From Spirochaetota bacterium (GTDB lineage Bacteria; Spirochaetota; GWE2-31-10; JAFGQB01), in the NCBI GenBank assembly GCA_016935915.1, contig JAFGQB010000135.1:1-59884 (forward strand): 59,884 nucleotides of DNA, read 5' to 3'. The notes under the pieces were generated by a model. It ran no database searches and was not told the origin of the DNA. It saw only the letters and a list, made by a program, of their open reading frames with translations. Position numbers and translations under genes: made by a program. The first letter of the stretch is position 1. Each line of letters opens with the position of its first letter. Positions 18,370 through 56,516 of this stretch are shown piece after piece.

Positions 18370-18382
18370 ATTTTCATTCCTT

Positions 18383-18991
18383 TCATTTTATAGTCAATAT
18401 TTGTCCATCTAATTTTTCACCATTAATTATTAAATTATAAACAAAATCCGCTACATCAGCAGGCTTTAACATATTTATAAAATCATCATCAGGATTAATA
18501 TAATGTCTCATGTCTGTATCAACCGCAGATGGACAAACACAATATACTTTTATTCCATAATCTTTTAATTCTTCGGCTAAACTAAGACTGAAATTTATAA
18601 TTGCCGCTTTTGTAGCAGCATAAGCTGCCCTTCCTGGTCTGGCTCCCAAACCAGCGGTTGAAGCAATATTGATTATTTTACCTTTTATTTTTCTTTCAAT
18701 ACAGTGTTTTATATATGTTTTGCAACAATTAAATGTTCCATGAACATTTACATTGAACTGTTTTTTCCAATCATAGCTTGTTAATTCACTTACATTCCCT
18801 ACTTTGATAATTCCAGCATTATTTATTAATACATCAATATTATAAGGATCGGTTAAAATATAATCTATGCAATTAGATTTTCTTACATCTGTTTTAGTAG
18901 TTACTCCATAAATACGTCCCCCTAATTTGATACATCTTTCTGAAATTGCATTTCCTATTCCTCTACTACTCCCTGTTATTATAATATTCAT
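18383..18991 (-). CDS. short-chain dehydrogenase/reductase, candidate ribulose-5-phosphate reductase
   Basis: 202 residues, a compact classical SDR. The dinucleotide loop is TGSSRGIG (residues 6-13), then NNAG (about 57-60), the catalytic Ser in IASTAGLGAR (about 112) and YAATKAA with the Tyr and Lys (about 123-127). It overlaps the cytidylyltransferase gene by 26 bases. The same two domains are fused in the bifunctional CDP-ribitol synthase Bcs1/Acs1 of Haemophilus, so this is probably the reductase that makes ribitol-5-phosphate. The substrate remains an inference. Confidence 0.75.
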   Translation of the reverse strand: MNIIITGSSRGIGNAISERCIKLGGRIYGVTTKTDVRKSNCIDYILTDPYNIDVLINNAGIIKVGNVSELTSYDWKKQFNVNVHGTFNCCKTYIKHCIERKIKGKIINIASTAGLGARPGRAAYAATKAAIINFSLSLAEELKDYGIKVYCVCPSAVDTDMRHYINPDDDFINMLKPADVADFVYNLIINGEKLDGQILTIK

Positions 18992-19628
18992 AAATACCCT
19001 CCGCTATTACCAAATCTAAGGGAGTAGTAATTTTAATATTACATTGTTCTCCTTTTAATACCTTTGGCTTAATATTTGAAAAATTCATAACCAGTGCCGA
19101 GTCATCAGTAAAATTAAGCAAATTTGTCTTTTTTGCCTTTTCATGACATTCATTAAGTAATTTAAATTGATACTTTTGAGGCATTTGAACTTCACCACAG
19201 AAATCCCTATCAATTACTTTGCCAAAATCCTGTATTACTGTTGAATAAAAAGAACTCCTAGGGACAATAAAGTCTCCTGTAAATTTTAAAACTTTTCTAA
19301 TTAATTTTTCAGAACAAAATGGCCTTACAGCTTCCATAATTAAAACATAATCAGTTTCACACTTTTTCAATGCATTATATACAGATAATTGCCTAGTTTC
19401 ACCTTTTTCAACTAGTTCATAATTTTTGATATAGTAATCAGTTAATATCATTTCAGTTTTATAAAAATTATTTGCTGATATAATAATTTTTCCTATCTCT
19501 TTAATTTTTCTTAATGTCTCAAGACCATATATTAATATAGGTTTTCCCTTCAACCTTGCAAACTGTTTCGGATATCCTAAATCAGCTCTTACTCCAGATC
19601 CACCAGATAAATAAATAACATCAATCAT
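18966..19628 (-). CDS. IspD/TarI-like cytidylyltransferase, candidate CDP-ribitol pyrophosphorylase
   Basis: 220 residues. The N-terminus YLSGGSGVRADLGYPKQFARL is the signature nucleotide-binding loop of the IspD/TarI group, and TDYVLIMEAVRPFCSEKLI and PQKYQFKLL are further family blocks. Members activate either methylerythritol phosphate or ribitol-5-phosphate with CTP. Coupling to an SDR and to a polyol-phosphate transferase favours ribitol-5-phosphate over the isoprenoid role. Starts 1 nt after the small gene upstream. Confidence 0.8.
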   Translation of the reverse strand: MIDVIYLSGGSGVRADLGYPKQFARLKGKPILIYGLETLRKIKEIGKIIISANNFYKTEMILTDYYIKNYELVEKGETRQLSVYNALKKCETDYVLIMEAVRPFCSEKLIRKVLKFTGDFIVPRSSFYSTVIQDFGKVIDRDFCGEVQMPQKYQFKLLNECHEKAKKTNLLNFTDDSALVMNFSNIKPKVLKGEQCNIKITTPLDLVIAEGIYEYYNNRE

Positions 19629-19629
19629 T

Positions 19630-19836
19630 CTAATTACCTACCTTAAATTCATTTTTATGTTGACTTATAAACTCAAGCGACTTAACAAAAGACCTCATAT
19701 CGTTTAAGTCACTGTTTATTTGTTCAAAACATGCAGATTGATATTTATTTAAATCTCCATCTTTTGATTTTAGAGTGTTTAAATCTTTAAATAATTTTAT
19801 AGTATTGTGTAATTGTCCTAATAATTCTTTATACAT
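19630..19836 (-). CDS. small helical protein, unknown
   Basis: 68 residues, all-helical and amphipathic (LGQLHNTIKLFKDLNTLKSK, DLNDMRSFVKSLEFISQH). I do not recognise it. It sits between the methyltransferase and cytidylyltransferase genes of the glycan module with good spacing, so it is likely real. Confidence 0.5.
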   Translation of the reverse strand: MYKELLGQLHNTIKLFKDLNTLKSKDGDLNKYQSACFEQINSDLNDMRSFVKSLEFISQHKNEFKVGN

Positions 19837-19861
19837 ATTAATCAGTCCCCTTTATTTCAAT

Positions 19862-20446
19862 TTATTTTTTCTTCAATATCCATGCAAAATATTTTTCTAA
19901 ACCTTTAATTAAATAACAACTTCTTTTCTCAATAAGTTTATATCCATACTTTTCAAATATCTTTTTATAATCTCTTAAATTTAATTCAATTAATATAATA
20001 TATTCACTTGCTATATTTGCCATTTCTTTTAAAATCCAATTGCTATCAACATGAATATGTTGCAATACCGCCATTGTATAGATGGTATTGAATTCATTTT
20101 CTTTAAATTTTAAAACACAATCTTCAATTGGCTTATTAATAATTCTTGCTTTTAATTCAGGAAAAAACTCTTTTTGTTTTTTTACTGCTTCTGTGCTAAT
20201 TTCAACACCTGTCAACGATTTATAGCCATCAATAAATAAACCATTTAGATTTCTTCCACAATTACAGCCTATTTCTAATATTTTCTTATTCTTAGGCACT
20301 TTATATTTAGCTAATAAACTTAATAAATATCTTGTCCTTTGTTCAGTATGTGGCCTAATATAATTTTCTGTTTTATTATGATCGTGCGGTGATTGCCAAT
20401 AATTCAAACATTCTTCAAGGCTATTCTTTCTAATATCATAATTCAT
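19862..20446 (-). CDS. class I SAM-dependent methyltransferase of the glycan module
   Basis: 194 residues. The SAM-binding loop is KILEIGCNCGRNLNGL (about residues 55-70), the acidic residue ending strand 2 is in LTGVEISTEAV, and the post-motif strand is NTIYTMAVLQHIHVD. It probably methylates a sugar or lipid-linked glycan intermediate. It overlaps the GT29-like gene by four bases, so the two are co-translated. Confidence 0.7.
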   Translation of the reverse strand: MNYDIRKNSLEECLNYWQSPHDHNKTENYIRPHTEQRTRYLLSLLAKYKVPKNKKILEIGCNCGRNLNGLFIDGYKSLTGVEISTEAVKKQKEFFPELKARIINKPIEDCVLKFKENEFNTIYTMAVLQHIHVDSNWILKEMANIASEYIILIELNLRDYKKIFEKYGYKLIEKRSCYLIKGLEKYFAWILKKK

Positions 20447-21231
20447 ATTTTAGATCTCCATTCTTTAAGTATTTTATTATCAATAATAATTCTATCATCA
20501 TTTCTAAATACTTCTAATAGTAATTTTATTTGTATGTTGTAATTATGAACTAATTTTCCTTTTCTTCTTTTCTTGCCATCAACTCTTACAAGTTTCTTCT
20601 CAAGATCATCCCATTTTAAAGTTTCCACTGGTAAACTATAAAATGGATGATAGCCCACCGAATAAAAGTCACACCCAACTATTTCTAATGATTTTATGTC
20701 CATACTTAAGATATGTAAAATTGTCAAAGTACTCATATTTGGATCACTTCTGTTTAAAATAGTTTGAAGTTCACCCAGAAATATATTTGTTACTGGGACT
20801 ATAGTAATTTGTTTATTCTGTCTTTTAGCTTTTTCAAAATCTGAATTAATTTTTATGAATTTACCTAAAAAAGCTTTATCCCTCGAAGATCCATTCAATG
20901 GATCTCGTTTAGAGACAAAATATTTTATACCATCACCTTGTAACATTTGAATTCTTCCTAAGTTGAACTTATTTGCTGTATAATGCAACATAGTATTAAT
21001 AGCACCTGTGTGATATAAAACATCAGTACGAGATCCTATATCTTTATGATACTTTTTTTGTGACATAACTGGATAAGATTGATTCATTCGTACCACTACA
21101 TCAGCAGCATTAATTTTCTTTCCCAATCCACTATTTTTTAATGATTTACTAGGACCAACTAAAATAACTTTTTTACCTTCTAAATATTTTCTATAATCTT
21201 TTATATTATTCTGGTAGTTCTGCATGTTCAT
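20443..21231 (-). CDS. sialyltransferase-like glycosyltransferase (GT29 type)
   Basis: 262 residues. KKVILVGPSKSLKNSGLG with KINAADVVVRMNQS (about residues 19-50) is the sialylmotif-L-like signature of family GT29, which transfers sialic or other nonulosonic acids from a CMP donor. A second block near MSTLTILHILSMDIKSLEIV and GCDFYSVGYHPFYS fits the motif S/VS region. In this operon, with nonulosonate-pathway genes, the natural donor would be a CMP-nonulosonate made by the neighbouring enzymes. GT29 domains are known mostly from eukaryotes and a minority of bacterial capsule loci. Confidence 0.65.
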   Translation of the reverse strand: MNMQNYQNNIKDYRKYLEGKKVILVGPSKSLKNSGLGKKINAADVVVRMNQSYPVMSQKKYHKDIGSRTDVLYHTGAINTMLHYTANKFNLGRIQMLQGDGIKYFVSKRDPLNGSSRDKAFLGKFIKINSDFEKAKRQNKQITIVPVTNIFLGELQTILNRSDPNMSTLTILHILSMDIKSLEIVGCDFYSVGYHPFYSLPVETLKWDDLEKKLVRVDGKKRRKGKLVHNYNIQIKLLLEVFRNDDRIIIDNKILKEWRSKI

Positions 21232-22318
21232 CCCATCCTATTATTTGTTTTATTATTTTTAAATATTCATTGTATAATAAATCAATTTCCCTTAATGTAT
21301 TTCTTGTAATATCAAAGTTACTATCAATTTCTTTTTGCAATATAGATATTATTTGAGTAATATTTATATTACTTCGTCTTCCTAAATCACTAAGTATCAA
21401 AGAATCTTCTTTTATCTTAATTGCTTCTTTTTTTACATAATCAGGAGCTGCATGAATACCTAAACCGTTAAAAGTTACTAAATGTCCCCATCCACGTCCA
21501 TCCTCAGCTATTAAAAATGATGGTTTTCTGTTTTTTAAAAACCATTTATGTGCGTGAAGTCTAAAACCTATATGCATATCTATATTGTTGTAATAATCTA
21601 AATTGCTGGAATCTCCTGATAAATCAACATACTTTTTATATAATCTTTCATCACTAAGTACTTGATGAGTCGTTAAAATTACCTTAAATTTAAAATGTTT
21701 TTCAAGTTCATTCTTTAACTTATCAACTTCTTTATAATAATAAATATTATGTGGAAGTGAAATTGCGATTTTATTGATAGAATAACATTCTAATGATTTT
21801 TTTATTTTAATTTTATCAAATAAAGCTAAATCGCCCAAAACAGGCACTTCTAAACCATTATATCTTAACAAATTACTTGTTAAAACATCTCTACAGGTTA
21901 CACAACTGTTTTCATCATTTAAAAGATATTTTAATAATGCTTTTTCATATGAATTAATTTTGTTTTTAGTCTGGGCAATTGTTCCTGGATATACACACCA
22001 CGAACATCCTAAAGCAAAAACAGGAATATTTAACCTTATAGCTTTTTCAAGATATTTAATTCTAGTTTTTAAATTCTCTTGACCTTCTAAAGATATTCTA
22101 AAAGCAGGCATTAATATTTTGTCATAATGATCTTTTAAATTTAAAGAATTAAATAATTGTTCTCTATTTTCTGTTGATTTTGCTATTGATACCACATCAA
22201 AATATATTTCTTTTTTAGAATGATCTTTGATTAATTTTATTAATGACTCAACTATTAGATCATCCCCTGAATTTCTAAGTCCATCAATCGCATAGGGTGT
22301 TAATATTAATAAATTCAT
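21206..22318 (-). CDS. polysaccharide pyruvyl transferase-like protein
   Basis: 370 residues. The N-terminal YAIDGLRNSGDDLI with a GD motif (about 9-22), ALGCSWCVYPG, TCRDVLTS and the late HIGFRLHAHKWFL (about residue 240) are typical of the PS_pyruv_trans family, which transfers pyruvate from PEP to form ketals on exopolysaccharides or wall sugars. It overlaps the GT29 gene by 26 bases. The sugar acceptor cannot be read from the sequence. Confidence 0.75.
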   Translation of the reverse strand: MNLLILTPYAIDGLRNSGDDLIVESLIKLIKDHSKKEIYFDVVSIAKSTENREQLFNSLNLKDHYDKILMPAFRISLEGQENLKTRIKYLEKAIRLNIPVFALGCSWCVYPGTIAQTKNKINSYEKALLKYLLNDENSCVTCRDVLTSNLLRYNGLEVPVLGDLALFDKIKIKKSLECYSINKIAISLPHNIYYYKEVDKLKNELEKHFKFKVILTTHQVLSDERLYKKYVDLSGDSSNLDYYNNIDMHIGFRLHAHKWFLKNRKPSFLIAEDGRGWGHLVTFNGLGIHAAPDYVKKEAIKIKEDSLILSDLGRRSNINITQIISILQKEIDSNFDITRNTLREIDLLYNEYLKIIKQIIGWDEHAELPE

Positions 22319-22328
22319 ATATTACCTC

Positions 22329-22892
22329 TCAATCAATAAGATTCTTTATATAACAAGTTTCTTTATTAAAATTAAAATACATGCTATTATAATATTTACC
22401 ATTGTAATATTTTCTATTTGGTAATATTGCAATTTCACTTCCATTAAATTCATCAATCATCTTTTCCCAAAACTTTATATGTGGCGAACACGAATAACAT
22501 TCTCCAAAAATATTTTCTAAATTCAAAGATGAAAAGCCCCATTTTAATAATTGATAACAAGCAATTCTTCCATATCCTTTACCTATATATTCAGGGTTAA
22601 CAATTAAACTTATTTCGCCCAATCTATTTTCCCATTGAATACCTACAATTCCTATACATGCAATCAATTTCAAATCTGGCATATTTCCATACATACCTAT
22701 ATATCTATGATTAGAATTTCTATTACATATTTCATTATGATAAAAATTACTTTGCATTTCCTTTGTTAATTTTTGAGTAGTTCTGAGAATATTCCCATCA
22801 AGAAGATTTCTCCATTTACGAACTAGATCAAAAGATTTTTCACACAAACTATCTAACTTGAAATTCATGGGTATATTTATATCGAGTTCCAC
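22329..22892 (-). CDS. GNAT N-acetyltransferase, PseH-like candidate
   Basis: 187 residues. The acetyl-CoA loop is GEISLIVNPEYIGKGYGRIA (about residues 98-117; the R/Q-x-x-G-x-G/A motif is IGKGYGR), followed by the last GNAT strands (ILPNRKYYNGKYYN). It overlaps the cytidylyltransferase gene by 44 bases. In pathways making pseudaminic acid, an acetyltransferase (PseH) acts on the 4-amino sugar from PseC, which fits the neighbourhood. GTG at 22892 is the likely start; the ATG at 22868 is the alternative. Confidence 0.65.
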   Translation of the reverse strand: MELDINIPMNFKLDSLCEKSFDLVRKWRNLLDGNILRTTQKLTKEMQSNFYHNEICNRNSNHRYIGMYGNMPDLKLIACIGIVGIQWENRLGEISLIVNPEYIGKGYGRIACYQLLKWGFSSLNLENIFGECYSCSPHIKFWEKMIDEFNGSEIAILPNRKYYNGKYYNSMYFNFNKETCYIKNLID

Positions 22893-23571
22893 TCAAATCG
22901 CCTTCTTTCATTACATACATTTTAATAATATCTGATACCTTATTAAATTCTTCTAAAGTATCTATACTCCATTTATCTCTAAATAATGTTTTATCATCTG
23001 AGCCAGCATAATAAGAATTAAATGTTCCAATTTTATATTTATCAGGTCTATTCTTAAATGCCAATGTTACATGTTCCCTTTCTTCTTTATTAGCAATATT
23101 ATTTATAGCAATCATAGCTTTTTTAGTCATTGCTTCAACATCAAGACCACTGCAATAATTACCTTTATTATGCGAAAAGTCACATTCATTATATATATGA
23201 TGCATCATTATTTCATCAATTAAATAAGAATTGAAAGCCAATAACGGACAATCATGTGTTAGTCTTACAATGTTTTCAACTTCACAGTCAAGACCTTTTT
23301 CAATTTCTTCAACAGTCTCAACAAATCTTCCTAGAACATCATTTCGATCTTCCATATTGCTTATATGTACATATGCATCCTCATAATAATCCATTATAAA
23401 ATTAACATCTTTAGGACTATTTGTCGTTGCTAAAACAACATGATCAATTGTCTTCGCTCGTCTACCTGCAGCGATTACATATTCAAGTAATGTATTCACA
23501 CCTATTTTTAAACCTGCTTTTCCTGGAAGCCGACTAGAATCAATTCTAGTCGGTATTATTACTATATTCAT
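22849..23571 (-). CDS. CMP-nonulosonate cytidylyltransferase (PseF/SpsF family)
   Basis: 240 residues of the CTP_transf_3 fold: PTRIDSSRLPGKAGL (residues 7-21) is the nucleotide-binding loop, and NIVRLTHDCPLLAFNSYLID carries a metal-binding Asp. SpsF of spore coat and PseF of pseudaminic acid pathways are the closest types. It would activate the nonulosonic acid with CTP, giving the donor for the GT29-like enzyme downstream. Located one gene after the synthase block. Confidence 0.75.
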   Translation of the reverse strand: MNIVIIPTRIDSSRLPGKAGLKIGVNTLLEYVIAAGRRAKTIDHVVLATTNSPKDVNFIMDYYEDAYVHISNMEDRNDVLGRFVETVEEIEKGLDCEVENIVRLTHDCPLLAFNSYLIDEIMMHHIYNECDFSHNKGNYCSGLDVEAMTKKAMIAINNIANKEEREHVTLAFKNRPDKYKIGTFNSYYAGSDDKTLFRDKWSIDTLEEFNKVSDIIKMYVMKEGDLSGTRYKYTHEFQVR

Positions 23572-23588
23572 TGTTTCTCCTCATTTCT

Positions 23589-23927
23589 TTACTCATAATA
23601 AAATAACCATTTTTTTACTTGTTTCCATTCTTTTATACTTTCAAAAAATTTTCTTTCTTTTTCTTCTTTCATTTGTTTAATTATCATAAAAAAATATTTT
23701 ATAAATTTATCATCTTTCAAAAGAATATCAGTTAAAATAAAATAATGTTCATTTCCACAAATTGTTCCAAATACACTAGTTTTATATATTTCTTTATTAT
23801 GATAATTTATTTCGTAAAAATCATCATAATTATAATTTAAAAAACTGTGAAGTCTTATCCTTGTATAATGCAAATTTTTATAATTAAATGAATAATTATT
23901 TTTAAATATAATTTTTTTCTTATCCAT
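23589..23927 (-). CDS. unknown protein of the glycan module
   Basis: 112 residues, aromatic and basic (Tyr/Phe/Lys-rich, KKIIFKNNYSFNYKNLHYTR), ending WKQVKKWLFYYE. No domain recognised. Its start overlaps the preceding gene and it precedes the cytidylyltransferase, so it belongs to the operon. Confidence 0.45.
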   Translation of the reverse strand: MDKKKIIFKNNYSFNYKNLHYTRIRLHSFLNYNYDDFYEINYHNKEIYKTSVFGTICGNEHYFILTDILLKDDKFIKYFFMIIKQMKEEKERKFFESIKEWKQVKKWLFYYE

Positions 23928-24204
23928 TCTTAACTATTTTACCATTCTTTAAAATATATCCTTCTCTTCCACTATTTCTAAAATCATATATTTTATAGGC
24001 CTGATTATAAACTTCCTTTTCTATATCAAGTTTCTGCGATATTTGTTTCAAAGGGGCAACTAAATTTAATAAATTTCCAGACATCTCAGTATCATTATTA
24101 TAATAATATGCGATATCCGCTTTCCTTTGATAATCAGCTATTTTAAATGCAATTGCATCTATTACTCTTTTTCTGAAAACATTTTTTTTAAATATATCTA
24201 GCAT
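23920..24204 (-). CDS. small helical protein of the glycan module, unknown
   Basis: About 94 residues from the ATG at 24204, chosen because GAGG lies 9 nt upstream; the longer frame would start inside the synthase gene. Mostly helical with a C-terminal YILKNGKIVKNG tail. It starts 1 nt before the synthase stop. Function unknown. Confidence 0.45.
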   Translation of the reverse strand: MLDIFKKNVFRKRVIDAIAFKIADYQRKADIAYYYNNDTEMSGNLLNLVAPLKQISQKLDIEKEVYNQAYKIYDFRNSGREGYILKNGKIVKNG

Positions 24205-24205
24205 A

Positions 24206-24823
24206 TTACAATACCTCACTTAATTGCTCTGGAGTTCTTGCAAATTCTCCAGCATCTAAACCTGTTGAATCTTCTAATTTATAATGCCATTCAATAACAC
24301 TAGGAAGTAAATTTTTAAATAAATTAAAATTTGTTGTATGATCTGAGATTATACAACCAGGTTTTAATTTCATTTTTAAATAGTCTTTTTCATCTGCTGG
24401 ATAATTACTAATACACCACATTTGCTTATAATTCTTTTTATTTCTTTCTAAATATAAAGGCACATTTGAAGAAATATATAACATCATATTATCAGGAATG
24501 TATTTTATTAAATAATGCAAATCTGTATTATTTGCAATCTTCACAAAAGGAATATCATAACTTAATAAAAAGTTTAATGATGCCCTGTCAAAAACTGATG
24601 CAGTCACCCAATATCCTAATTCACGTCCATACCAATATGCATAATCAAACGATTGTCTACTCAGAGGTATATTATCTCCTGCTTCACGAAATAACTGCCA
24701 TTTTACAATTATTTCATGTCTTCCGGTATCAATTTCTTTTAACTGATCATACATCTTCGATATATAATCTTTTGAATTTTTGCAAGTGTTCCCACTTCCA
24801 AAATCTAATATAATTGTACTCAT
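24206..24823 (-). CDS. short NeuB/PseI-family nonulosonic acid synthase-like protein
   Basis: 205 residues, clearly related to NeuB/PseI/SpsE but lacking the ~60-residue C-terminal antifreeze-like (SAF) domain and shortened elsewhere; family members are about 330-350 residues. Matching blocks are IIVKWQLF (VKFQ block), TASVFDRASLNFLLSYDIPF (about 70-90), VKIANNTDLHYL (KIAS-type), then NYPADEKDY, CIISDHT and EWHYKLEDSTGLDAGEFART near the end. The normal reaction condenses PEP with a 6-carbon amino sugar to give a 9-carbon nonulosonic acid. Whether this minimal form is active is unknown; some substrate residues may be missing. Confidence 0.65.
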   Translation of the reverse strand: MSTIILDFGSGNTCKNSKDYISKMYDQLKEIDTGRHEIIVKWQLFREAGDNIPLSRQSFDYAYWYGRELGYWVTASVFDRASLNFLLSYDIPFVKIANNTDLHYLIKYIPDNMMLYISSNVPLYLERNKKNYKQMWCISNYPADEKDYLKMKLKPGCIISDHTTNFNLFKNLLPSVIEWHYKLEDSTGLDAGEFARTPEQLSEVL

Positions 24824-24829
24824 TTTATT

Positions 24830-25156
24830 TTATTTTCCTTTCATTTTAACAATTAATTCTACTCTATTCCTACAATAAGTTTTATCAAAGATATTTGTAA
24901 CATGTTTCTTTACTGTATTTTCAGTAATAAAATGTTTAATAGCTATTTCTTTATATGATAAACTTGTAAGTAAGTCTCCTAATATTTCATTCTCTTTAAT
25001 ACTCAAATTTGAAAGATTTATATTATTAATTAAAGCCAATTTACCTGAAAAATATTTTAATTTATCAATGCTTTCTTTTACCTTGAATCCTCTCTCGATT
25101 CTTTCCTGATATAAAATAATTGCAGTTTCATAATATAATTTTTCAAACATCTTCAT
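24830..25156 (-). CDS. LuxR/GerE-type regulator with C-terminal HTH
   Basis: About 108 residues from the ATG at 25156, which overlaps the end of the rha gene (a longer frame uses a TTG). The C-terminal 60 residues are a LuxR-type helix-turn-helix: LSIKENEILGDLLTSLSYKE, then IAIKHFITENTVKKHV and NIFDKTYCRNRVELI. The N-terminal part is helical with no response-regulator domain. It precedes the synthase gene by 6 nt and may control the glycan genes. Confidence 0.7.
   Translation of the reverse strand: MKMFEKLYYETAIILYQERIERGFKVKESIDKLKYFSGKLALINNINLSNLSIKENEILGDLLTSLSYKEIAIKHFITENTVKKHVTNIFDKTYCRNRVELIVKMKGK
25131..25154. repeat. 24-bp direct repeat, copy 1 (flank of rha insertion)
   Basis: TAATATAATTTTTCAAACAT plus CTTC, identical to 26048-26071. 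This copy spans the stop of rha and the start of the LuxR-type gene. Confidence 0.9.
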
Positions 25157-25892
25157 TAACACCAATTTTTTCAATTTCAATATTTGGTAATATCTCTTTA
25201 AATCCTAAACTCTTTGACATTTCAATAACTCTTTTTTTTGCTAATTGAAATATATCTTTGTAATACATTTCATTATTCATTCCTTCAATTATTGCAGTTT
25301 TAACAATCATATCCGCTACAATAATCTTAGATAATTGTTGTATATTTAAAATTTCACGAACATTTTTAAATTTTTCTTTAAGTATAAAAAACGCTGAATT
25401 TTCCATTTTACTATAAATCATATAATATTTATCTGAACTCTTAGACCCTTGTTTCTTAGCGTATTCTATAAATATTTTTATTATATCTGTCTCTTGCTTT
25501 CTTTCAATTTTACTTTGATTTCTGGTTTCAATATATTGTTCATTCTGCTTTTGTGTTTTCTGCTCTATTATCCATTTTTTCATTTGATGAAATTGTTTTG
25601 ATATTTTAAGTTTCATTTTCATAACTGTATCAATTTCGTTGGCTTTTGTTCTCATATTCATAATTAAAAATATAAATTGTTCTTCATTTAAGTAATAAAC
25701 TTTTAAAGGCGCACCACCTTTTTTAGTTTTAGGTTTTAGCATCTCAAATGCTAAAACCCCTAATGTTTTTAATTCTTTTTCATATGTTTCAACCAATTTA
25801 TAAATAGTTCTATGTTCCCTTTTTAATTCATTTGCAATAATATTTGTTGACACATAGATTTCATCTCTTTTCACTGTCAATAAATTATTCAT
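25143..25892 (-). CDS. Rha-family phage regulatory protein (pRha)
   Basis: 249 residues. The N-terminal ~100 residues match the pRha domain: VSTNIIANELKREHRTIYKL, KTKKGGAPLKVYYLNEEQF and LIMNMRTKANEIDTVMKMKL. The C-terminal part is helical with a long Lys/Glu coiled coil. Rha proteins are phage regulators, and several act as antirepressors or interfere with host factors. It has its own promoter (25969-25997) with inverted repeats overlapping it. It lies inside the glycan operon flanked by a 24-bp direct repeat, so it looks like a later insertion. Confidence 0.82.
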   Translation of the reverse strand: MNNLLTVKRDEIYVSTNIIANELKREHRTIYKLVETYEKELKTLGVLAFEMLKPKTKKGGAPLKVYYLNEEQFIFLIMNMRTKANEIDTVMKMKLKISKQFHQMKKWIIEQKTQKQNEQYIETRNQSKIERKQETDIIKIFIEYAKKQGSKSSDKYYMIYSKMENSAFFILKEKFKNVREILNIQQLSKIIVADMIVKTAIIEGMNNEMYYKDIFQLAKKRVIEMSKSLGFKEILPNIEIEKIGVNEDV

Positions 25893-25913
25893 AGTAAATA
25901 AACCTTCCTATTG

Positions 25914-26014
25914 GTAAATTTTATTTACTACATTTGAAATGTAGTAAACATTTAATACATCAATAAGCATTATACATTAATTACTTTATAGTGTAAATAA
26001 TATTATCTATTTAC
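25914..26014 (-). promoter_or_regulatory. rha promoter with three overlapping inverted repeats
   Basis: The minus-strand promoter is TTTACA (25992-25997), 17 nt, TATAAT (25969-25974). Three inverted repeats surround it. One is GTAAAT-TTT-ATTTAC (25914-25928). A second has 12-bp arms TTTACTACATTT around a central base (25924-25948). The third, GTAAATA and TATTTAC (25993-26014), covers the -35 box. All share the half-site GTAAAT or GTAGTAAA, which suggests repressor-controlled autoregulation. Confidence 0.75.
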
Positions 26015-26047
26015 CAGATTTTAGTTGTTTTCAAAAGTTAGTATTAT

Positions 26048-26071
26048 TAATATAATTTTTCAAACATCTTC
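26048..26071. repeat. 24-bp direct repeat, copy 2 (flank of rha insertion)
   Basis: Identical to 25131-25154. Here it covers the last codons of the aminotransferase (IEDV-stop) and the bases just downstream, which duplicate the LuxR-type gene start. Confidence 0.9.
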
Positions 26072-27151
26072 TATTAATAATTTCATATTATTTTCCCAGT
26101 TAATAATTTTACCAATTATTAAACTTTGTTGTCCTTCAGATAATGTATAAAAAATTGGGATACTTACTACTTGACCATAAATAGTAGCAGTATATGGACA
26201 ATTAACACAGCTTTTTTTATGGTATGGATGGTCATATACAGGGGGATAATGAACTACACACATTATATTATTAGCTTTCATATACTCAATAAATTTATCT
26301 CTATTATGAGTTTTTATAATAAATAAATGCCATACATTTTCAAACTGTTGTCTAACTACTTTTACATTTACCATGTTTTCAAAAGCTTTTAAATATTTAA
26401 TGGCTATTTCTTTTCTTTTTATTATAAATTTGTCAATCTTTTTAAGTTGAGAGTTCCCCAGAGCTGCGTTAATATCTGGCATTCTATAATTATATCCAAT
26501 ATGTAGTTGTTTATTATCAAATGTTTTATACCTTCCATGATTTCTAAATGTCTTTACTAAGGTATCATAAAACATATCATTTGTTAAAACTGCACCACCT
26601 TCACCTGTTGTTATATGCTTTACTGGATGGAAACTATAACAAATTATATCAGGTGTAGCAATTTTTGATTTTTTTGTTATTGCACCAAACGCATGACAGC
26701 TATCAGATATAAATACTAAATTATGTTTTTTACAAATTGATTTAATTGTTTGATAGTCAACTAATTGTCCACCCATATCAACGGTTATAATTGCCTTTGT
26801 TTTTGGTGTTACAAGGTTTTCAATTATGTATGGATTAATAAGTAAAGACTCGTTAACATCACAAAATACAGGTTTCGCCCCTAAGTAACAAACTGCATTC
26901 GCTGTGGCTGTAAAAGTTATTGATGGAACAATAACTTCGTCACCTTCTTTTATTCCTGCTGCAAATAACGCACAATGAAGAGCAGCCGTTCCACTGTTAA
27001 CCACTGAGCAATATTTAAAACCTGTATAATTTGATAAATTTTCTTCGAACTTATCAATCACAGATCCGCCTGTTAAAGTATCACTTTTTAAAACTTCAAC
27101 GACTGCATCAATATCTTTTTGATCTATATATTGTTTTCCGTAACCTATCAT
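26060..27151 (-). CDS. pseC: DegT-family PLP aminotransferase, PseC-like
   Basis: 363 residues. The start MIGYGKQYIDQKDIDAVVEV is the PseC-type opening (close to PYGKQYIDEDDIKAVVEVL in reference enzymes). The cofactor region has SDSCHAFGA, and the PLP lysine lies in YSFHPVKHITTGEGGA (about residue 180). It transfers an amino group to the 4-keto sugar from PseB, giving UDP-4-amino-4,6-dideoxy-sugar. It overlaps pseB by four bases (ATGA). C-terminal residues are within the duplicated 24 bp next to rha. Confidence 0.85.
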   Translation of the reverse strand: MIGYGKQYIDQKDIDAVVEVLKSDTLTGGSVIDKFEENLSNYTGFKYCSVVNSGTAALHCALFAAGIKEGDEVIVPSITFTATANAVCYLGAKPVFCDVNESLLINPYIIENLVTPKTKAIITVDMGGQLVDYQTIKSICKKHNLVFISDSCHAFGAITKKSKIATPDIICYSFHPVKHITTGEGGAVLTNDMFYDTLVKTFRNHGRYKTFDNKQLHIGYNYRMPDINAALGNSQLKKIDKFIIKRKEIAIKYLKAFENMVNVKVVRQQFENVWHLFIIKTHNRDKFIEYMKANNIMCVVHYPPVYDHPYHKKSCVNCPYTATIYGQVVSIPIFYTLSEGQQSLIIGKIINWENNMKLLIEDV

Positions 27152-28116
27152 TTTATTAATTTCTCCATTTCTTTTATATTTATTTCATCTTGATCCATTG
27201 AACTATAATCATTATTATTAAAAAACATTCCTTTATGATTATCCCATCTGTCATAATTTAAATTTAATTTATAAATAGATGGGTATACTATAAAGAAAGA
27301 ATTATCAATTTCTATAGTCCTTTGAGATTCTTCTTTAGAAAATAAAATCTCGTGCAATTTTTCTCCCTGTCTAATACCTATCATTTTAATATTTTTATCA
27401 TTAGTAAATAACTGAGCTAATTTTCTAACTTCCAAACATTTTAATTTAGGAATAAAAATTTCTTCACCTTCCATTAATTTCAATGATTTTACAACAAATT
27501 CAACAGCATTTTCTATTGTTATCCAAAATCTAGTCATATTAAGATCAGTTAATGAAATATGTCCTTCATCTTTCATTTGTTTGTTCCATAATTCAATTAC
27601 ACTTCCACGACTACCAATTACATTTCCATATCTTACACATGAAAATTTAGTATTTTTATTTCCACAATAATTATTACCATGTATAAATAATTTTTCCATA
27701 ACTGCTTTTGTACAACCATATAAATTAATAGGTTTTACTGCTTTATCAGTGCTAATTGATAGTACTTTTTCGACACCTCTATCAATAGCAGCATTTATTA
27801 TATTTTCAGCGGAATTTATATTTGTTTTTACTGCTTCAATGGGATTGTATTCACATGAAGGAACGTGTTTCTGAGCAGCCGCATGTATTACATAATTGAT
27901 TCCCTCAAAAGCTCTATACAATCTATCCTTATCCCTTATATCACCTATTAAATATTGAATTCTTTCATCTTTAAATTGTTCCCTCATTTTCCATTGTTTA
28001 CATTCATCCCTTGAGAAAATATAAACTTTTTTTACATCTTCTTTTAATATTCTTTTTACAAAAGCATTTCCAAACGTTCCAGTTCCACCAGTTATTAATA
28101 TTTTTTTATTTTTCAT
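27148..28116 (-). CDS. pseB: UDP-N-acetylglucosamine 4,6-dehydratase/5-epimerase, PseB-like
   Basis: 322 residues of the extended SDR family. The NAD loop is TGGTGTFGNAFV (8-19), then IFSRDECKQWKMREQF, IGDIRDKDRLYRAFEG and YVIHAAAQKHVPSCEYNP, all characteristic of PseB; the catalytic triad region is STDKAVKPINLYGCTKA (Asp/Lys/Tyr, about 128-144). This dehydratase starts pseudaminic acid synthesis from UDP-GlcNAc with C5 inversion. An AAAGG ribosome binding site is followed by ATG at 28116. Upstream lies the paired hairpin element. Confidence 0.88.
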   Translation of the reverse strand: MKNKKILITGGTGTFGNAFVKRILKEDVKKVYIFSRDECKQWKMREQFKDERIQYLIGDIRDKDRLYRAFEGINYVIHAAAQKHVPSCEYNPIEAVKTNINSAENIINAAIDRGVEKVLSISTDKAVKPINLYGCTKAVMEKLFIHGNNYCGNKNTKFSCVRYGNVIGSRGSVIELWNKQMKDEGHISLTDLNMTRFWITIENAVEFVVKSLKLMEGEEIFIPKLKCLEVRKLAQLFTNDKNIKMIGIRQGEKLHEILFSKEESQRTIEIDNSFFIVYPSIYKLNLNYDRWDNHKGMFFNNNDYSSMDQDEINIKEMEKLIK

Positions 28117-36777: not shown

Positions 36778-37413
36778 TTAAAATAATTTTTTATGTTCTT
36801 CCCTAAGTATACAAGGCACTGCTTTTTTCCATAATATCTTATGATGAATTCTTTTTTCAACTGCACCCATCCTAATTATTCTTACACATGAAGGGCAATA
36901 AATTACACTGTAAAAACTTTTTACATATGTTCCCTGATCCTTATATATTTCAGTCAAGCCACCTGAACTTGACTGCGTTTGAACTTGCCCAATCGAAACA
37001 CAGCTTATTGTAAAAAATAATTTTCCCTCACTTCCCCATCGAACATATGCATTGACGTCCTCATTTACTCCTCCTAAAAAAGTAAATGGTCTTTCATTAC
37101 TACAAATTTGTGTATTCATAGCTTTCCTACGCATAAGAATATTTACTCCCATTGCACTATTTTGTCCCCCGATAAAATCACCATTTTGAGCGAAAGACAA
37201 CGATGTTATACTCTTTGTATTCTTATAAAATTTTAAAAGCTTTTCAAAGAGATCATCAAGTGTATTATAAAGTCTAATGTGTTTAAATTCACCTTTTACA
37301 TTAAACCTTAATCCAAAGTCGGTATAATCATCATCAAATTCCATGAAGTATTTTATTTTAAGTTTTTTTGCAAGCTCAAAACAATAATTTCGAGCAAAAA
37401 CAACTAAATTCAT
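36778..37413 (-). CDS. phage GT-A glycosyltransferase, C-terminal part (TET-associated type), frameshifted
   Basis: 211 residues. It starts in the middle of a fold: NLVVFARNYCFELAKKLKIK and EFDDDYTDFGLRFN hold the DDD/DxD metal site of a GT-A transferase. The N-terminal part is in another frame at 37410-37634 (SHGRPDKIHTLRTFERQKYT). A -1 shift within AAGAAAAAG (37447-37451) would join them as DKKK-VTVDRADNF. Together they resemble the glycosyltransferases associated with phage TET/JBP-type base modification. Its partner oxygenase was not seen, so DNA modification is a possibility, not a claim. Confidence 0.5.
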   Translation of the reverse strand: MNLVVFARNYCFELAKKLKIKYFMEFDDDYTDFGLRFNVKGEFKHIRLYNTLDDLFEKLLKFYKNTKSITSLSFAQNGDFIGGQNSAMGVNILMRRKAMNTQICSNERPFTFLGGVNEDVNAYVRWGSEGKLFFTISCVSIGQVQTQSSSGGLTEIYKDQGTYVKSFYSVIYCPSCVRIIRMGAVEKRIHHKILWKKAVPCILREEHKKLF

Positions 37414-37634
37414 ATTATTAAAGTTATCAGCACGATCAACCGTAACTTTTTCTTGTCAAAGATAATAATTTTATCACCATATAATTTTATATATTCATCT
37501 TTTGTTTTATCATCATTATCAATTAAAATATAATATCGTCCTGTATATTTCTGTCGTTCAAATGTTCTTAATGTATGTATTTTATCAGGTCTGCCATGCG
37601 ATAAAATAAAGATACAAAAGTTATTAGGTAACAT
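37410..37634 (-). CDS. phage GT-A glycosyltransferase, N-terminal part (TET-associated type), frameshifted
   Basis: From ATG at 37634 (GGAG 11 nt upstream) this gives NNFCIFILSHGRPDKIHTLR and YYILIDNDDKTKDEYIKLYG, the GT-A opening of the family. It then runs out of frame at a short A run into LRLIVLITLII and a stop at 37410. The partner frame begins within the same bases. The start overlaps the ParB-like gene by 11 nt. Confidence 0.5.
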   Translation of the reverse strand: MLPNNFCIFILSHGRPDKIHTLRTFERQKYTGRYYILIDNDDKTKDEYIKLYGDKIIIFDKKKLRLIVLITLII

Positions 37635-38481
37635 TATCATCAAACTCCTTTTCTTTTGATTCAATACCATCCTCATATACATCATTAACAAACTGAGTAA
37701 ATCCATATTCTATAGCCTTGTTAAAATCTATTATTACCATTGCAAGTTTTTCCATTATTTCTTGAGTTTTTTTACCTTGATGACAATAGAACTCAGCTAT
37801 ATTTTCATAGTTAAATACTATAAATCTATAAGCAGCGAAAATTAAAAAAGATTCAAGATCCTTTTCAAATTTCTTTGATTTTATTTCTTTTATTAAATTC
37901 ATACATTTTTCATAATTAATGCAGTCTTTTAATTCAGGTGGGTTTTCTTGTTTAGGCTCGTATATTGGAGCTTTTATTTTTTCTGTATATGACTTTACAT
38001 CATTTTCGTTTTTACTCTCTCCTCCTTCAGAATTGTTACTATTTTTACCTGTCACTCCTTCAGTATTTACACTTCCTTCGAATTCGCTTATAATTTTTTC
38101 AAATTCCCCATCGGTAAAACCTGTGAAATTAAATAATTCATTACAATTGATTTTAATATCATCTAATAAACTTTGTAACTTTTCAAAATCCCAAGATCCA
38201 TCAATTTTATTGAGTGCAATATTTAGTGCCTTTTCATCATATTCTCCAATATCTACCTGTACAACATCAATAACTTTATATCCCAACTCTTTTAATACTG
38301 GAATTCTTTGATGGCCTGCAATAACTTTTAAATCATTATTGCAGATTATCAAATCAACATATCCAAACTTTTGTATACTTCTTTTTAATTCTTCATAAGC
38401 ACGATCCCCAGGTTTTAATTTTATCCTAGGATTGTAATCAGCTAAAATTAATTTATTTACATCTACTTTTATAATTTTCAT
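37624..38481 (-). CDS. ParB-like nuclease domain protein
   Basis: 285 residues. The ParB/Srx fold is clear at the N-terminus: ILADYNPRIKLKPGDRAYEE, KSIQKFGYVDLIICNN and VIAGHQRIPVLKELG (residues about 10-75). The C-terminal half is helical and acidic. Such proteins are frequent just before terminase small subunit and may handle DNA ends or modification. The upstream gene overlaps by four bases. Confidence 0.75.
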   Translation of the reverse strand: MKIIKVDVNKLILADYNPRIKLKPGDRAYEELKRSIQKFGYVDLIICNNDLKVIAGHQRIPVLKELGYKVIDVVQVDIGEYDEKALNIALNKIDGSWDFEKLQSLLDDIKINCNELFNFTGFTDGEFEKIISEFEGSVNTEGVTGKNSNNSEGGESKNENDVKSYTEKIKAPIYEPKQENPPELKDCINYEKCMNLIKEIKSKKFEKDLESFLIFAAYRFIVFNYENIAEFYCHQGKKTQEIMEKLAMVIIDFNKAIEYGFTQFVNDVYEDGIESKEKEFDDNVT

Positions 38482-53182: not shown

Positions 53183-53485
53183 TTAACTCTTTTTCAAACA
53201 AACATCAACATTTCTATTATGATTTAAATTACTGCAGCATTTTTCATCAATGGTATTTGTTCCACAAATTCTACATAATTTTTTCCCAGATGAGTTTATT
53301 GAAGGATCTCCAAAAGCTTCACAGCTTTTGGGATAATCTTCATCTAAATTACATGTTTCTGGTATTCCTGATAAATTACAAAAAATCCAATAAAATTGAT
53401 TTTCTTTTGATATTTTCTGTCCATTAGGAAGTTTTGTGACTTCTTTTATTTCTTTCATATATTCACAGTCTCTACATTTCAACAT
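53183..53485 (-). CDS. Cys-rich zinc-binding small protein
   Basis: About 100 residues from the ATG at 53485, which overlaps the helicase end. CRDCEYMKEI and KLCRICGTNTIDEKCCSN plus the ETCNLDEDYPKSCEAFG segment give eight or more Cys, so one or two zinc knuckles. Function unknown; it is the last gene of the early operon. Confidence 0.5.
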   Translation of the reverse strand: MLKCRDCEYMKEIKEVTKLPNGQKISKENQFYWIFCNLSGIPETCNLDEDYPKSCEAFGDPSINSSGKKLCRICGTNTIDEKCCSNLNHNRNVDVCLKKS

Positions 53486-56400
53486 TTTCAATTCGCTCCT
53501 TTAAATATGTATTTCTTTTTAATAAATTATTTCTTTTTACAATTTTACTTGTTAGACCTTTATTACTTATTAATATTACTGTCTGTTTACCTCTGGTAAT
53601 AGCTGTATAAAGTAATCTACTATCTAAAATAATTGAATCCTGGGGAATTATTATTACAATGTATTTAAATTCTGATCCTTGAAGTTTGTGAACTGTTGAG
53701 CAATATGAAAGTATAAAATTTTCCCAGACATCAAGATCCTTTTTATAAGTTATGAATTTTTCAAGTTCTTTGTAATATACTGTAAAAGTTGTATTATCAA
53801 TATTGGTTATCCTGCCAAACTCACCATTATAAACATCATTTTCTTTATCATTTTTTGTATTCATAATTTTATCATTAATATCAAAAGGGAATTTATCTTT
53901 TGATGTCTTTTTATTATGTTTATCTTTGATAATTTTATTTATATTTTCAACACCAACGTCCCCTTTTTTTACTGGGGATATAAATTGAACTTCCGAATAA
54001 AAAGAGTCTATTGATGAATATTTTGATTTTAAATACTCATAAAAATATAAAATAGTATCTATATATTGGCTTGGTGTTTCTGCTTCCTTTGCGTAAAAAT
54101 CAGCTTTTTTGATGTATTCAAAATCATTATTATTTCGAACACTTGTTGCAATATCAATAATGTTTGAGTCTTTTGATTGCCTGAATGTTTTTACGAGTTT
54201 AAATACATTAAACTTGTTACTTTCTATTAAATCATTCAAGATATTTCCGGCCTGAACTGAGGGCAATTGTCCTATATCACCAACAAATATTATTTTATTA
54301 AAATCAATTGCACTATTATCCATACTCAACAATAAATCACTTAATAATTCAGTATCAATCATTGACGATTCATCAATAATCATTACACCATTTTTAGTAG
54401 TGTAATAGTCATTAGATTCATTTAAAAAACGATGTATAGTTGTTGCCTTTTCTCCTGTAGCTTGTGACATTCTACGAGATGCTTTACCTGTTGGAGCTGT
54501 TAAAAATAATCTATATCCTATTTCTTTTAAAACAAATATTACACATTTTAAAAGAGTAGTTTTACCACTATTACCAGTAATAAATATATTATTATTTCTT
54601 CTTAAAATTAATTTTCCTGAATTCACTGTAAAACAATATTTATATCCATCAATAGTTTTATAACTATTGATGGATGTTTTTTTATGTGTTTTTCTTTTGT
54701 CTCTACATAATGATGGTAAATTATTTTTTGAAAAACTAACATTGTATTCTATTGACTTCCTTTTATATTCCTTTCCATCTATAGAATATATTTCACCTAC
54801 TCTATTATTGATTGAAATATAAGATCTATAACCACAAACACTTCCTACAAATTGTATAAAATCAGCATCTTTTTTTATTGTAGTTGTCCATCTTTTTTTA
54901 TTTATAAAATCACCATCCCAATAAAAAATTTCATTATATATAATTTCAAATTGTTTCTTTGTGCAATTATACCAATTATGACCAAAATTTTTAGTAGTTT
55001 TATAATTAAATGAAAATCTTGTATAATTATTATCTAAATTAGATTCTTTATATAATATATTGTTTTTTTCTAATAGTAATCGTATTCTTTCTTTTTTTCT
55101 TTCTTTTTTTAAATTTATTGAACAATAATCATTATCTTTATAATAACTACCATCTGCTTTAATAGCTATTTGAAGCCTAATTTCCCATTCATCACATTTA
55201 ATTCCAATTCCATTATAATTAAATGTAGTTATAAATTTGCCTTTGAAACTTGTTTTATTATGATTTTCCCGTACTTCTTTAAATGTTTTTTTATACAGAT
55301 TATTTTTTGAAGTTATATAAAATACATTGTGTTCGTCGCTTAAACACTGATCAATTCCATATTTAGTTTTAAAATACCATAAATAATCAGATTTATATTT
55401 ATGGTATTCAATAGGATATACTAATTCAGAATTTCCAAAATGGTTATATTGAAGAACTTTATCTCCTTTTTTATATTCTGATATTTTTTTCCATTCATAA
55501 CCATTAAAATACTCTGTGTCACAATCAACACAACCAGCTCCACCAGTGATTATTGAAACATTATCATTAATTGATCCTTTAATTGCTGAAATCTGGTAAC
55601 TATCAAATTTTATTTTATTTATTTCCTGAAATTTATTTATCAAAGATTCTATTTTATATGTATCCAACTTTTCTACATTCTTTTTATTTTTTAATACATT
55701 AAGATGTCTAGGAATCATTGTTTCAGCAAAAAACATTGATTTCGTATATATTTTATCACCATCACAAACCAGTCTATTATTATTTTCAAAATCAATATTA
55801 TTTAGACCAAAACTGTTTAGCTGTTCAATTAACTTATTTCTTTCTATATAGCAGCTTCCAGTCATTTCGTAACTTTTTACAATGTATTCGACTAAATATT
55901 TTAATCTATTTACATTGTCAATCTTTATTCCCATTGATAATGCTATTTTATCAGCTTTTTTAAAACTAAAATCATTCATTTCAATCAATATTTTATATGG
56001 ATCTTCTTTGAATTCTTCGATACCATGATCTAATACTTCTATACATTGAGTTACTTTTTTGATAACTGCTGGAGAAAAGTTTCCTCCTAACATCATAGTA
56101 ACATTTTTAAATATTTTCATTTGATCTAATTTTTTTAAACCTTCTTTTATTAACATAATCTTTGCATTTCCAATGCCTTTTATTTGCGGATAATCATCAG
56201 TTCTATAGATATTTATATCATCTATTTTTGATAGTATCAAAGAAGCTGTTGCCTCTTTGATACCATCTATTGACATTAATAAATTCTTTTGAGCTTCCTT
56301 ACTGTTTACATCAAACTCCTCATATTTACAAATAAAACTTTTTTGTCCTTGATATGTCCCCATTACACCTGTAAGAGTTTTTTGACCTTGACAGAGTTCG

Positions 56401-56516
56401 AAACCATCAGTTTTTACACTTAATTCCTCAAATGAATTATTGAATTTCGCAGCATATATATGAAAATCATTATTCATATATATTTCTTTTAATATTTCAC
56501 ATCTTATAGTATCCAT
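53472..56516 (-). CDS. RecD2-type helicase interrupted by an intein
   Basis: 1014 residues before splicing; about 693 after. N-terminal helix-hairpin-helix-like domain (DGIKEATASLILSKIDDINI, PQIKGIGNAKIMLI). The Walker A is TGGAG-SGKTTLLK when the intein is removed, Walker B is MIIDESSMID, and C-terminal VHKLQGSEFKYIVIII and YTAITRGKQTVIL are helicase motifs of the RecD2/TraI group. It unwinds DNA 5' to 3' in recombination or replication. The intein (329-649) splits the P-loop, so the helicase is inactive until it splices out. Confidence 0.88.
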   Translation of the reverse strand: MDTIRCEILKEIYMNNDFHIYAAKFNNSFEELSVKTDGFELCQGQKTLTGVMGTYQGQKSFICKYEEFDVNSKEAQKNLLMSIDGIKEATASLILSKIDDINIYRTDDYPQIKGIGNAKIMLIKEGLKKLDQMKIFKNVTMMLGGNFSPAVIKKVTQCIEVLDHGIEEFKEDPYKILIEMNDFSFKKADKIALSMGIKIDNVNRLKYLVEYIVKSYEMTGSCYIERNKLIEQLNSFGLNNIDFENNNRLVCDGDKIYTKSMFFAETMIPRHLNVLKNKKNVEKLDTYKIESLINKFQEINKIKFDSYQISAIKGSINDNVSIITGGAGCVDCDTEYFNGYEWKKISEYKKGDKVLQYNHFGNSELVYPIEYHKYKSDYLWYFKTKYGIDQCLSDEHNVFYITSKNNLYKKTFKEVRENHNKTSFKGKFITTFNYNGIGIKCDEWEIRLQIAIKADGSYYKDNDYCSINLKKERKKERIRLLLEKNNILYKESNLDNNYTRFSFNYKTTKNFGHNWYNCTKKQFEIIYNEIFYWDGDFINKKRWTTTIKKDADFIQFVGSVCGYRSYISINNRVGEIYSIDGKEYKRKSIEYNVSFSKNNLPSLCRDKRKTHKKTSINSYKTIDGYKYCFTVNSGKLILRRNNNIFITGNSGKTTLLKCVIFVLKEIGYRLFLTAPTGKASRRMSQATGEKATTIHRFLNESNDYYTTKNGVMIIDESSMIDTELLSDLLLSMDNSAIDFNKIIFVGDIGQLPSVQAGNILNDLIESNKFNVFKLVKTFRQSKDSNIIDIATSVRNNNDFEYIKKADFYAKEAETPSQYIDTILYFYEYLKSKYSSIDSFYSEVQFISPVKKGDVGVENINKIIKDKHNKKTSKDKFPFDINDKIMNTKNDKENDVYNGEFGRITNIDNTTFTVYYKELEKFITYKKDLDVWENFILSYCSTVHKLQGSEFKYIVIIIPQDSIILDSRLLYTAITRGKQTVILISNKGLTSKIVKRNNLLKRNTYLKERIENVEM
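54570..55532 (-). other. intein with LAGLIDADG-type homing endonuclease, inserted in a helicase P-loop
   Basis: Residues 329-649 (321 aa). The N-terminal CVDCDTEYFNGYEWKKISEY and KKGDKVLQY and the C-terminal VNSGKLILRRNNNIFITGN are standard Hint blocks; Cys329 is first, His/Asn end as GN, and Ser650 is +1. Block B is LSDEHNV. The endonuclease domain shows two LAGLIDADG-like helices: LQIAIKADGSYY (about 448) and YNEIFYWDGDF (about 527). P-loop insertion is a favoured intein site. Confidence 0.9.

Follow-up and report, generated by a model that had tools for sequence, protein, structure and literature searches.

A LAGLIDADG-bearing intein that splits the Walker A motif of a RecD2-like phage helicase, and its relatives at a short shared motif in unrelated host genes

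Introduction

Clustering of inteins in P-loops has been reported, and the inteins of mycobacteriophage TerL, which lie in the Walker A motif of a phage P-loop ATPase, show endonuclease activity against intein-less alleles; their "classic" site is located between the Lys and the Thr of the loop (PMC5050341, in the portion available). Ectopic movement of inteins has been argued to be very rare, since flanking homology is missing (PMC1635734, available text), and at most one ectopic event was supported in the set of another study (PMC4071816, available text). In the accessible part of PMC5050341, a single pair of related class 3 inteins is described, one member being in RecB and the other in TerL. 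Our literature search, judged by titles and the beginnings of abstracts and with most subscription journals outside its range, returned no paper that describes a single intein family distributed among many P-loop genes.

By definition, class 3 inteins possess a Cys at position C2:4 and have no Cys at position 1. The AceL NrdHF split intein (PDB 6zgq), with Ala1, an MCT triplet and neither block-C His, splices by the class 3 route (both points from the accessible part of PMC7891396). The VMA inteins TliVMA (PDB 7qss) and PI-SceI, of archaeal and yeast origin, share with the intein described here a Hint domain with a nested two-motif LAGLIDADG endonuclease over the whole length. They differ from it in sequence (12-15% identity), in their greater length and in their host gene. 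That gene we take to be the one for the V-ATPase.

The intein reported here, which lies in a RecD2-like helicase gene of a phage, is a new member of this known kind. The novelty is in its family, whose members share an insertion motif although their hosts are unrelated, and have two cysteines in the active site.

The helicase gene and its insert

The window, i.e., the whole stretch of DNA that was analysed, comprises 59,884 nucleotides of contig JAFGQB010000135.1 from a Spirochaetota bacterium (GCA_016935915.1). This contig (C129 in an assembly of 310 contigs, estimated completeness 78%) carries phage genes recognised by PHROG, including portal, major head, tape measure, small terminase and endolysin; scanning the window against Rfam and for tRNA genes gave no matches. 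The frame at 53472-56516 on the minus strand is a single open one and encodes a RecD2-like phage helicase of 1014 aa. Pfam matches above cut-off in this protein are HHH_RecD2 (46.6 bits), AAA_30 and UvrD_C_2, with SH3_13 just under it (38.9 against 41). The host is called "RecD2-like" because the intein-split precursor scores 425.1 bits, over two stretches, with the NCBIfam RecD2 equivalog, below the cut-off of 500.

The insert of 321 aa (54570..55532, minus strand; precursor residues 329-649) is in frame. It starts with Cys329 and ends ITGN before Ser650, and the flanks are ITGGAG and SGKTT. Its N-extein (residues 1-328; 55533..56516, minus strand) bears the HHH_RecD2 match and ends in the upstream half of the P-loop target, TGGAG, encoded at 55533..55547 on the minus strand by actggtggagctggt directly 5' of the intein. 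The C-extein (residues 650-1014; 53475..54569, minus strand) begins with the downstream half, the +1 Ser650 followed by GKTT, encoded at 54555..54569 on the minus strand by agtggtaaaactact directly 3' of the intein, and contains the remainder of Walker A together with AAA_30 and UvrD_C_2 (Pfam, NCBIfam). In PHROG 4412 (exonuclease V), positions 10-355 of the profile align with the first 328 residues (from residue 4) and positions 356-740 with the part that starts at residue 650; the two halves abut at 355/356, so the intein joint is exact. The initial annotation had placed an intein here, with Walker A split after TGGAG, a Cys329 start and GN before Ser650, and both the location and the borders hold against the translation, the PHROG profile and intein-free relatives.

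The closest relative of the host protein (L114) is intein-free, with 64.5% aa identity over 692 aligned extein positions and a continuous P-loop, IPGSAG/TGKTT, and it is syntenic with the window, RecT and RNase H-like neighbours being found in both. It is also the nearest intein-free extein; the comparison turned up no near-identical phage in which the site is empty. Two more distant intein-free proteins (L102, L103) each align to the joined extein as one stretch, L104 and L105 are likewise continuous at the site, and intein-free RecD2 in bacterial assemblies of the same phylum reads GGPG/TGKT or GAAG/TGKT at the site. Alignment to intein-less homologues had been named in advance as a way to check the annotation, and these continuous loops rule out the reading of the segment as a normal RecD2 domain. 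On the evidence of sequence and structure model, 54570-55532 is confirmed as a complete intein that includes an endonuclease and interrupts Walker A of a RecD2-like helicase, with splicing and cutting as predicted activities.

Of viral RecD2 homologues, 80 were sampled with an alignment query, a query with the C-extein only having given no RecD2 relatives in viral contigs. The P-loop was readable and intein-free in 72 of the 80, three carried the family intein (one of them, L176, being the same contig as L021), two a different intein, and in three the P-loop was unreadable in the frame used. Exteins of the occupied L021 and the empty L169/L170 are 91.7% identical in aa, with 27 of 30 nucleotides shared across the joint. 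The different intein (L131/L132, near locus 4001) lies in the same gene family and the same Walker A loop; it ends THN and is inserted at GK/TT, so inteins occupy two sites in the RecD2 family, separated by three residues.

The intein family and its host genes

With the intein as query and a threshold of E 1e-5, tblastn gave 134 phage records, a number that rose to 150 when the threshold was E 0.01. Thirteen loci were taken from the E 1e-5 set, 80 from 102 confirmed viral contigs and all three from genome-contig matches, which with the window made 97; removal of 18 at ≥90% identity left 79 non-redundant members. The genome to which the window belongs has no second copy of the family intein. 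Representatives were given host names from Pfam or PHROG, and these were extended to the others via BLAST clusters, except that one member (L017) was taken out of its cluster because Pfam gives a kinase/RNA ligase; the labels of L056 and L058 (terminase), L006 (kinase) and L048 (unknown) are weak.

The 79 relatives span 13 named host families, among which RtcB and SpoVR have no P-loop. The terminase large subunit is the host of 29 inteins, followed by SNF2-type helicase (12), DnaB/primase-helicase, RecD2 and RtcB (8 each), SpoVR (3) and kinases, PhoH and Pif1 (2 each), with single inteins in a NadR-like AAA_28 protein, a clamp loader, a polynucleotide kinase/RNA ligase, FtsK and an unknown protein. 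The intein nearest to that of the window (L015, 65% aa) is likewise in RecD2.

Matches to PHROG_32482 ("PhoH-like") were rejected as evidence of PhoH, being traced to the intein itself; this profile largely represents the family intein and mislabels unrelated hosts, and its name spreads wrong annotation. In Klebsiella phage FKP3 (L005, record PP895363), the AAA_28 protein that hosts the intein is annotated as RNA ligase. At 3294-4781 of L048, a family intein, sister to an RtcB intein, lies in a host of 184 aa (extein joined) that has no Pfam match and a PHROG match based only on the intein.

Architecture and conserved residues

Three segments can be distinguished in the intein, all encoded on the minus strand. 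The N-terminal Hint segment (residues 1 to about 106; 55215..55532; border chosen by us) contains Cys1 and block B, Ser65 to His68. The nested LAGLIDADG homing endonuclease (residues about 107-245; 54798..55214) has helices at 115-127 and 192-202, with Asp127 and Asp206 as the presumed catalytic residues, and matches I-DmoI and PI-SceI. The C-terminal Hint segment (residues about 246-321; 54570..54797) contains YC300F, T319, G320 and N321. The block names used here are the customary ones, and those tied to the description of class 3 follow PMC7891396.

Across the 79 members, C1, H68 and N321 are invariant, residue 65 is Ser (68) or Thr (10) in 78, and the Asp residues of the two LAGLIDADG helices are kept in 78 (D127) and 77 (D206). 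The SDEHNV context of the block B His, which had been thought slightly unusual, is therefore normal for the family. Cys300 is present in 79/79, a count to be read with the fact that most rows came from a scan with a YCF pattern, and in all 14 rows of an alignment (A1) found without it. The penultimate residue is Gly320 and not the common His; Gly at this position is a fixed family trait, occurring in all 78 inteins with a complete C-terminus. The +1 residue is Ser in 43, Cys in 24 and Thr in 11 of 78 sites, the window having Asn649-Ser650. Two RecD2 inteins of the family (L164, L167) have a degenerate second endonuclease motif that has lost WDG, which is what a homing cycle in decay would be expected to produce.

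The intein segment alone gave no matches in Pfam, NCBIfam or PDB (phmmer), and a profile of 74 relatives had one clearly significant sequence-profile match in PDB, the AceL NrdHF intein (E 2e-8). An AF2 model built from 61 rows (mean pLDDT 96.5, pTM 0.93) shows a Hint fold with a nested two-motif LAGLIDADG domain. Its best Foldseek match was the TliVMA intein (E 8.7e-13), with an I-DmoI-like match to the endonuclease. In VIA-align, inteins occupied the top matches, with TliVMA at Z 22.8 (285 residues, rmsd 3.9), PI-SceI at about 19 and AceL NrdHF (6zgq_B) as the best Hint-only match at Z 18.6 (145 residues, rmsd 2.2). The Hint blocks and two LAGLIDADG-like helices of the initial annotation are thus borne out by conserved residues, model and PDB matches alike. 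Comparison with the nearest relative (dN 0.276, dS 2.2, the latter saturated) points to purifying selection; for distant pairs dN/dS is unusable, dS being undefined or saturated.

Insertion sites and the shared motif

The window intein is inserted between Gly and Ser, three residues earlier than the "classic" mycobacteriophage TerL site. In the family, 54 of the 79 sites read |xGK in the usual P-loop register and 4 are in register with an altered GK, while 9 are of other kinds, 8 are the RtcB sequence VG(V/S)DIG/CGM, 3 are in SpoVR and 1 is truncated. The residue before the insert is Gly in 70/79, and almost every site conforms to G/(S/T/C)G. T7-like primase-helicases carry the insert directly after the loop's first Gly (TAG/SGLGKS, AGG/SGLGKT), two residues off the usual register, which indicates that the feature kept is the local G/SG motif and not the structural position. 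Two other uninterrupted G/(S/T)GK sites are present in the window phage, in a DEAD helicase at 46623 (plus strand) and a presumed terminase at 35927 (minus strand), the latter named by position and motif as it has no PHROG match; both have GGA before the joint.

We propose that this phage intein family settles at the short motif G/(S/T/C)G(K or M) in any gene encoding it, which would account for its presence in many unrelated P-loop proteins and in the RtcB active site. The nested LAGLIDADG nuclease would cut intein-free copies of the site, and repair would copy the intein in; between genes, the route may be cutting followed by illegitimate or short-homology repair. The explanation as a whole, an endonuclease-bearing P-loop intein from a phage family settling at a short motif, is given a probability of about 0.87, with the insert, the family and the phylogeny seen directly and with splicing, cutting and the route as its predicted parts. 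Such a family would explain in a simple way some of the excess of inteins seen in P-loop ATPases. A bolder form of the proposal is offered tentatively, as slightly short of an even chance: the codons of Walker A and of the RtcB active site may be a general landing site, where the endonuclease accepts GGN/(Ser/Thr/Cys)-GGN-A in non-homologous genes, so that movement would be routine and not only allelic homing, and the combined class 1 and class 3 nucleophiles of the active site may form a bridge between the classes.

The motif could also have its origin in splicing chemistry and not in DNA targeting. Insertion would then be broad, and the survivors would be those at Gly-then-Ser/Thr/Cys-Gly sites in essential active-site loops, which splice well and cannot be lost. 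This is quite possible, if not the account we favour, and it agrees with the frequency of Gly at -1 and with a Ser, Cys or Thr at +1 in 78/78 sites. Third codon positions are also mostly unconstrained: of 12 codon positions around the insert, 11 did not differ significantly from the gene's own codon usage. The one that departed was the -1 Gly codon (p 0.0075, among 12 tests), which ends in a pyrimidine in 51 of 70 cases against 37.8 expected (p 0.0012, post hoc and with relatedness ignored); in intein-free RecD2 the same codon ends in a pyrimidine at 32 of 66 distinct sites against 36.7 expected. This bias speaks against a purely chemical origin, though weakly, since it was picked after 12 tests. 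The silent-position signal for targeting at the DNA level is therefore weak and confined to the -1 wobble base. As the wobble bases around the target are mostly unconserved beyond codon usage, the case for DNA-level targeting is weak, and the shared motif could result from selection for junctions compatible with splicing.

Splicing class and proposed mechanism

The family carries the class 1 nucleophile Cys1 together with the class 3 internal Cys. The class 1 features found in the window intein are Cys1, the block B SDEH, the modelled Hint fold and Asn followed by Ser, the penultimate His being absent; the class 3 features are the C2:4 Cys (C300) and Thr319 (C1:5). By definition the intein is filed as class 1, and judging from these residues either cysteine could act first.

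A class 3 route, in which Cys300 and not Cys1 forms the first thioester, is rated unlikely, though by no means negligible. The universal block F (C2:4) Cys and the C1:5 Thr (67/79) fit it, as does the resemblance to the class 3 AceL NrdHF, the best Hint-only match, with which the C2:4 Cys, the C1:5 Thr and the missing C1:6 His are shared (PMC7891396, available text). However, Cys1 is present in 79/79, whereas class 3 is defined by its absence and AceL has Ala1; and residue 70, equated with N3:12 by our own count, is Val and not Trp (V 47, M 13, I 8 of 79 in the family). AceL NrdHF further differs in being a split intein, in its ribonucleotide reductase host subunit, in Met at N3:12 and in lacking a LAGLIDADG domain, whereas the present family is continuous and endonuclease-bearing. 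Cys1, the C2:4 Cys and GN are also kept at a greater distance, in seven relatives from phages or plasmids that are 22.3-27.2% identical. Distant relatives of this kind (L196, L194, L195, L200) occupy non-P-loop sites, in a mycobacteriophage primase, a staphylococcal phage nicotinamide phosphoribosyltransferase and a cyanobacterial plasmid protein. With its two cysteines, the active site opens the relation of class 1 to class 3 splicing to experiment.

In the proposed mechanism, the Hint domain would excise itself from the precursor after translation by an acyl shift at the N-junction and transfer to Ser650, and cyclisation of Asn649 followed by ligation would yield a continuous ITGGAGSGKTT loop. 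The penultimate His that usually serves Asn cyclisation is missing, which is a point against this mechanism; this His is common but not strictly necessary, and the functional AceL intein lacks it too. Splicing and homing of the window intein are what we infer from its catalytic residues and from the occupied and empty allele pairs, which come from relatives and not from the window copy.

With its P-loop split, the helicase would be inactive until splicing is done, and the intein might then be kept as a regulator whose conditional splicing (redox, temperature, DNA damage) times the helicase in infection. Besides this placement, Cys1 and Cys300 are redox-sensitive residues, and conditional splicing of mycobacterial DnaB inteins has been reported. 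This regulatory role is nevertheless improbable, since the intein-free L114 and the 72 intein-free viral loci show that the helicase does not need the intein, and the intein retains an intact endonuclease, which a selfish element would be expected to have.

Phylogeny and movement between genes

A phylogeny of the intein against its host, likewise named in advance as a check, places the inteins of different host genes among one another. The quick tree of 79 rows requires at least 24 changes of host label, and 200 label shuffles require 42-50. The observed number is below the shuffled range but above the 13 that would suffice for 14 labels; hosts are thus clustered, far from a single origin each. 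A careful tree, without the long row L101, requires 23 changes (22-24 in 200 of its 1000 bootstrap trees). Strongly supported mixed-host clades include DnaB L001 with RecD2 L002/L003 (100/100), L019 DnaB with the NadR-like protein and the polynucleotide kinase (100/98), SNF2 L088 with Pif1 (100/100), and terminase with kinase and PhoH (100/100). The window intein pairs with the RecD2 intein L015 at 100/100.

Exchange of modules between inteins contributes to this pattern, as some mixed-host clades rest on one domain only. When seven of them were checked by domain, DnaB/RecD2 and SNF2/Pif1 were recovered in both trees, three in one only and two in neither; the clade of DnaB L004 with TerL comes from the endonuclease only, and those of FtsK with SNF2 and of L006/L049/L039/L090 from Hint only. 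Domain swapping as the sole cause was rejected, because 23 changes are required even on a tree of Hint alone and 29 on one of the endonuclease alone. The AU test rejected a RecD2-only clade (22-row set, p-AU 1.38e-6) and with it vertical inheritance along host genes.

An ordinary allelic intein would home into RecD2 P-loops only, its likeness to inteins of other genes would be ancient, and intein and host would have mostly co-diverged. The RecD2 host of the nearest intein, the host-specific groups formed by RtcB, most TerL and most SNF2 inteins, and a count of changes far below the shuffled range are in keeping with this account. It is very improbable all the same, being largely refuted by the AU test and by the reciprocal sister phages described below, and also opposed by the sister relation of DnaB and RecD2 inteins (99-100 in both domain trees), by the non-homologous hosts RtcB and SpoVR and by the register shift in T7-like primase-helicases. 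From these trees, the family appears to change host genes much more frequently than is assumed for inteins, and it supplies at least a dozen moves to non-homologous sites, the reciprocal pair of the sister phages included, set against a literature view of very rare events (PMC1635734, PMC4071816, as far as their available text goes).

Sister phages with reciprocal occupancy

The Enterocloster phages CB473P1 and CB457P2, whose annotated genes are largely collinear, each contain one intein copy in the 100 kb examined. In CB473P1 the intein is in DnaB and RecD2 is empty, and in CB457P2 it is in RecD2 and DnaB is empty. The two inteins are 78.0% identical in aa and 83.8% in nt, and the exteins 95.3% (DnaB) and 91.0% (RecD2) in nt. 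At +1, DnaB has Ser in the occupied and Gly in the empty allele, and RecD2 has Cys and Arg, respectively; the occupied alleles therefore have a splicing nucleophile and both empty ones have none. Around the DnaB site, from about -100 to +300, identity per 50 bases falls from 94-100% to 80-94%, a dip of the kind that co-conversion should leave. In the RecD2 pair the entire upstream half is diverged, and there is no sharp dip.

More widely in RecD2, the +1 residue of intein-bearing genes is Cys in 5 and Ser in 2 (n=7 of the 79), and that of intein-free genes is Thr in 31, Ser in 17, Val in 11, Met in 10 and Cys in 3 (n=72). These counts, from related rows, fit import of the +1 codon together with the intein. 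The reciprocal pair comes from a named host strain collection, which makes ectopic intein invasion directly testable.

Other features of the window

Two further loci of the window, both on the minus strand, may be recorded. At 17239-28116 lies a phage-borne sugar operon resembling one for the synthesis of nonulosonic (pseudaminic-type) acid. It encodes PseB-like and PseC-like proteins just under the NCBIfam cut-offs and a NeuB-like fragment, along with cytidylyltransferase, acetyltransferase, GT29 sialyltransferase-like, IspD-like and SDR genes. At 36778-37706, a TET-associated glycosyltransferase (PF20691) extends over two overlapping frames, 36778-37413 and 37410-37706, as the result of either a frameshift or an assembly error.
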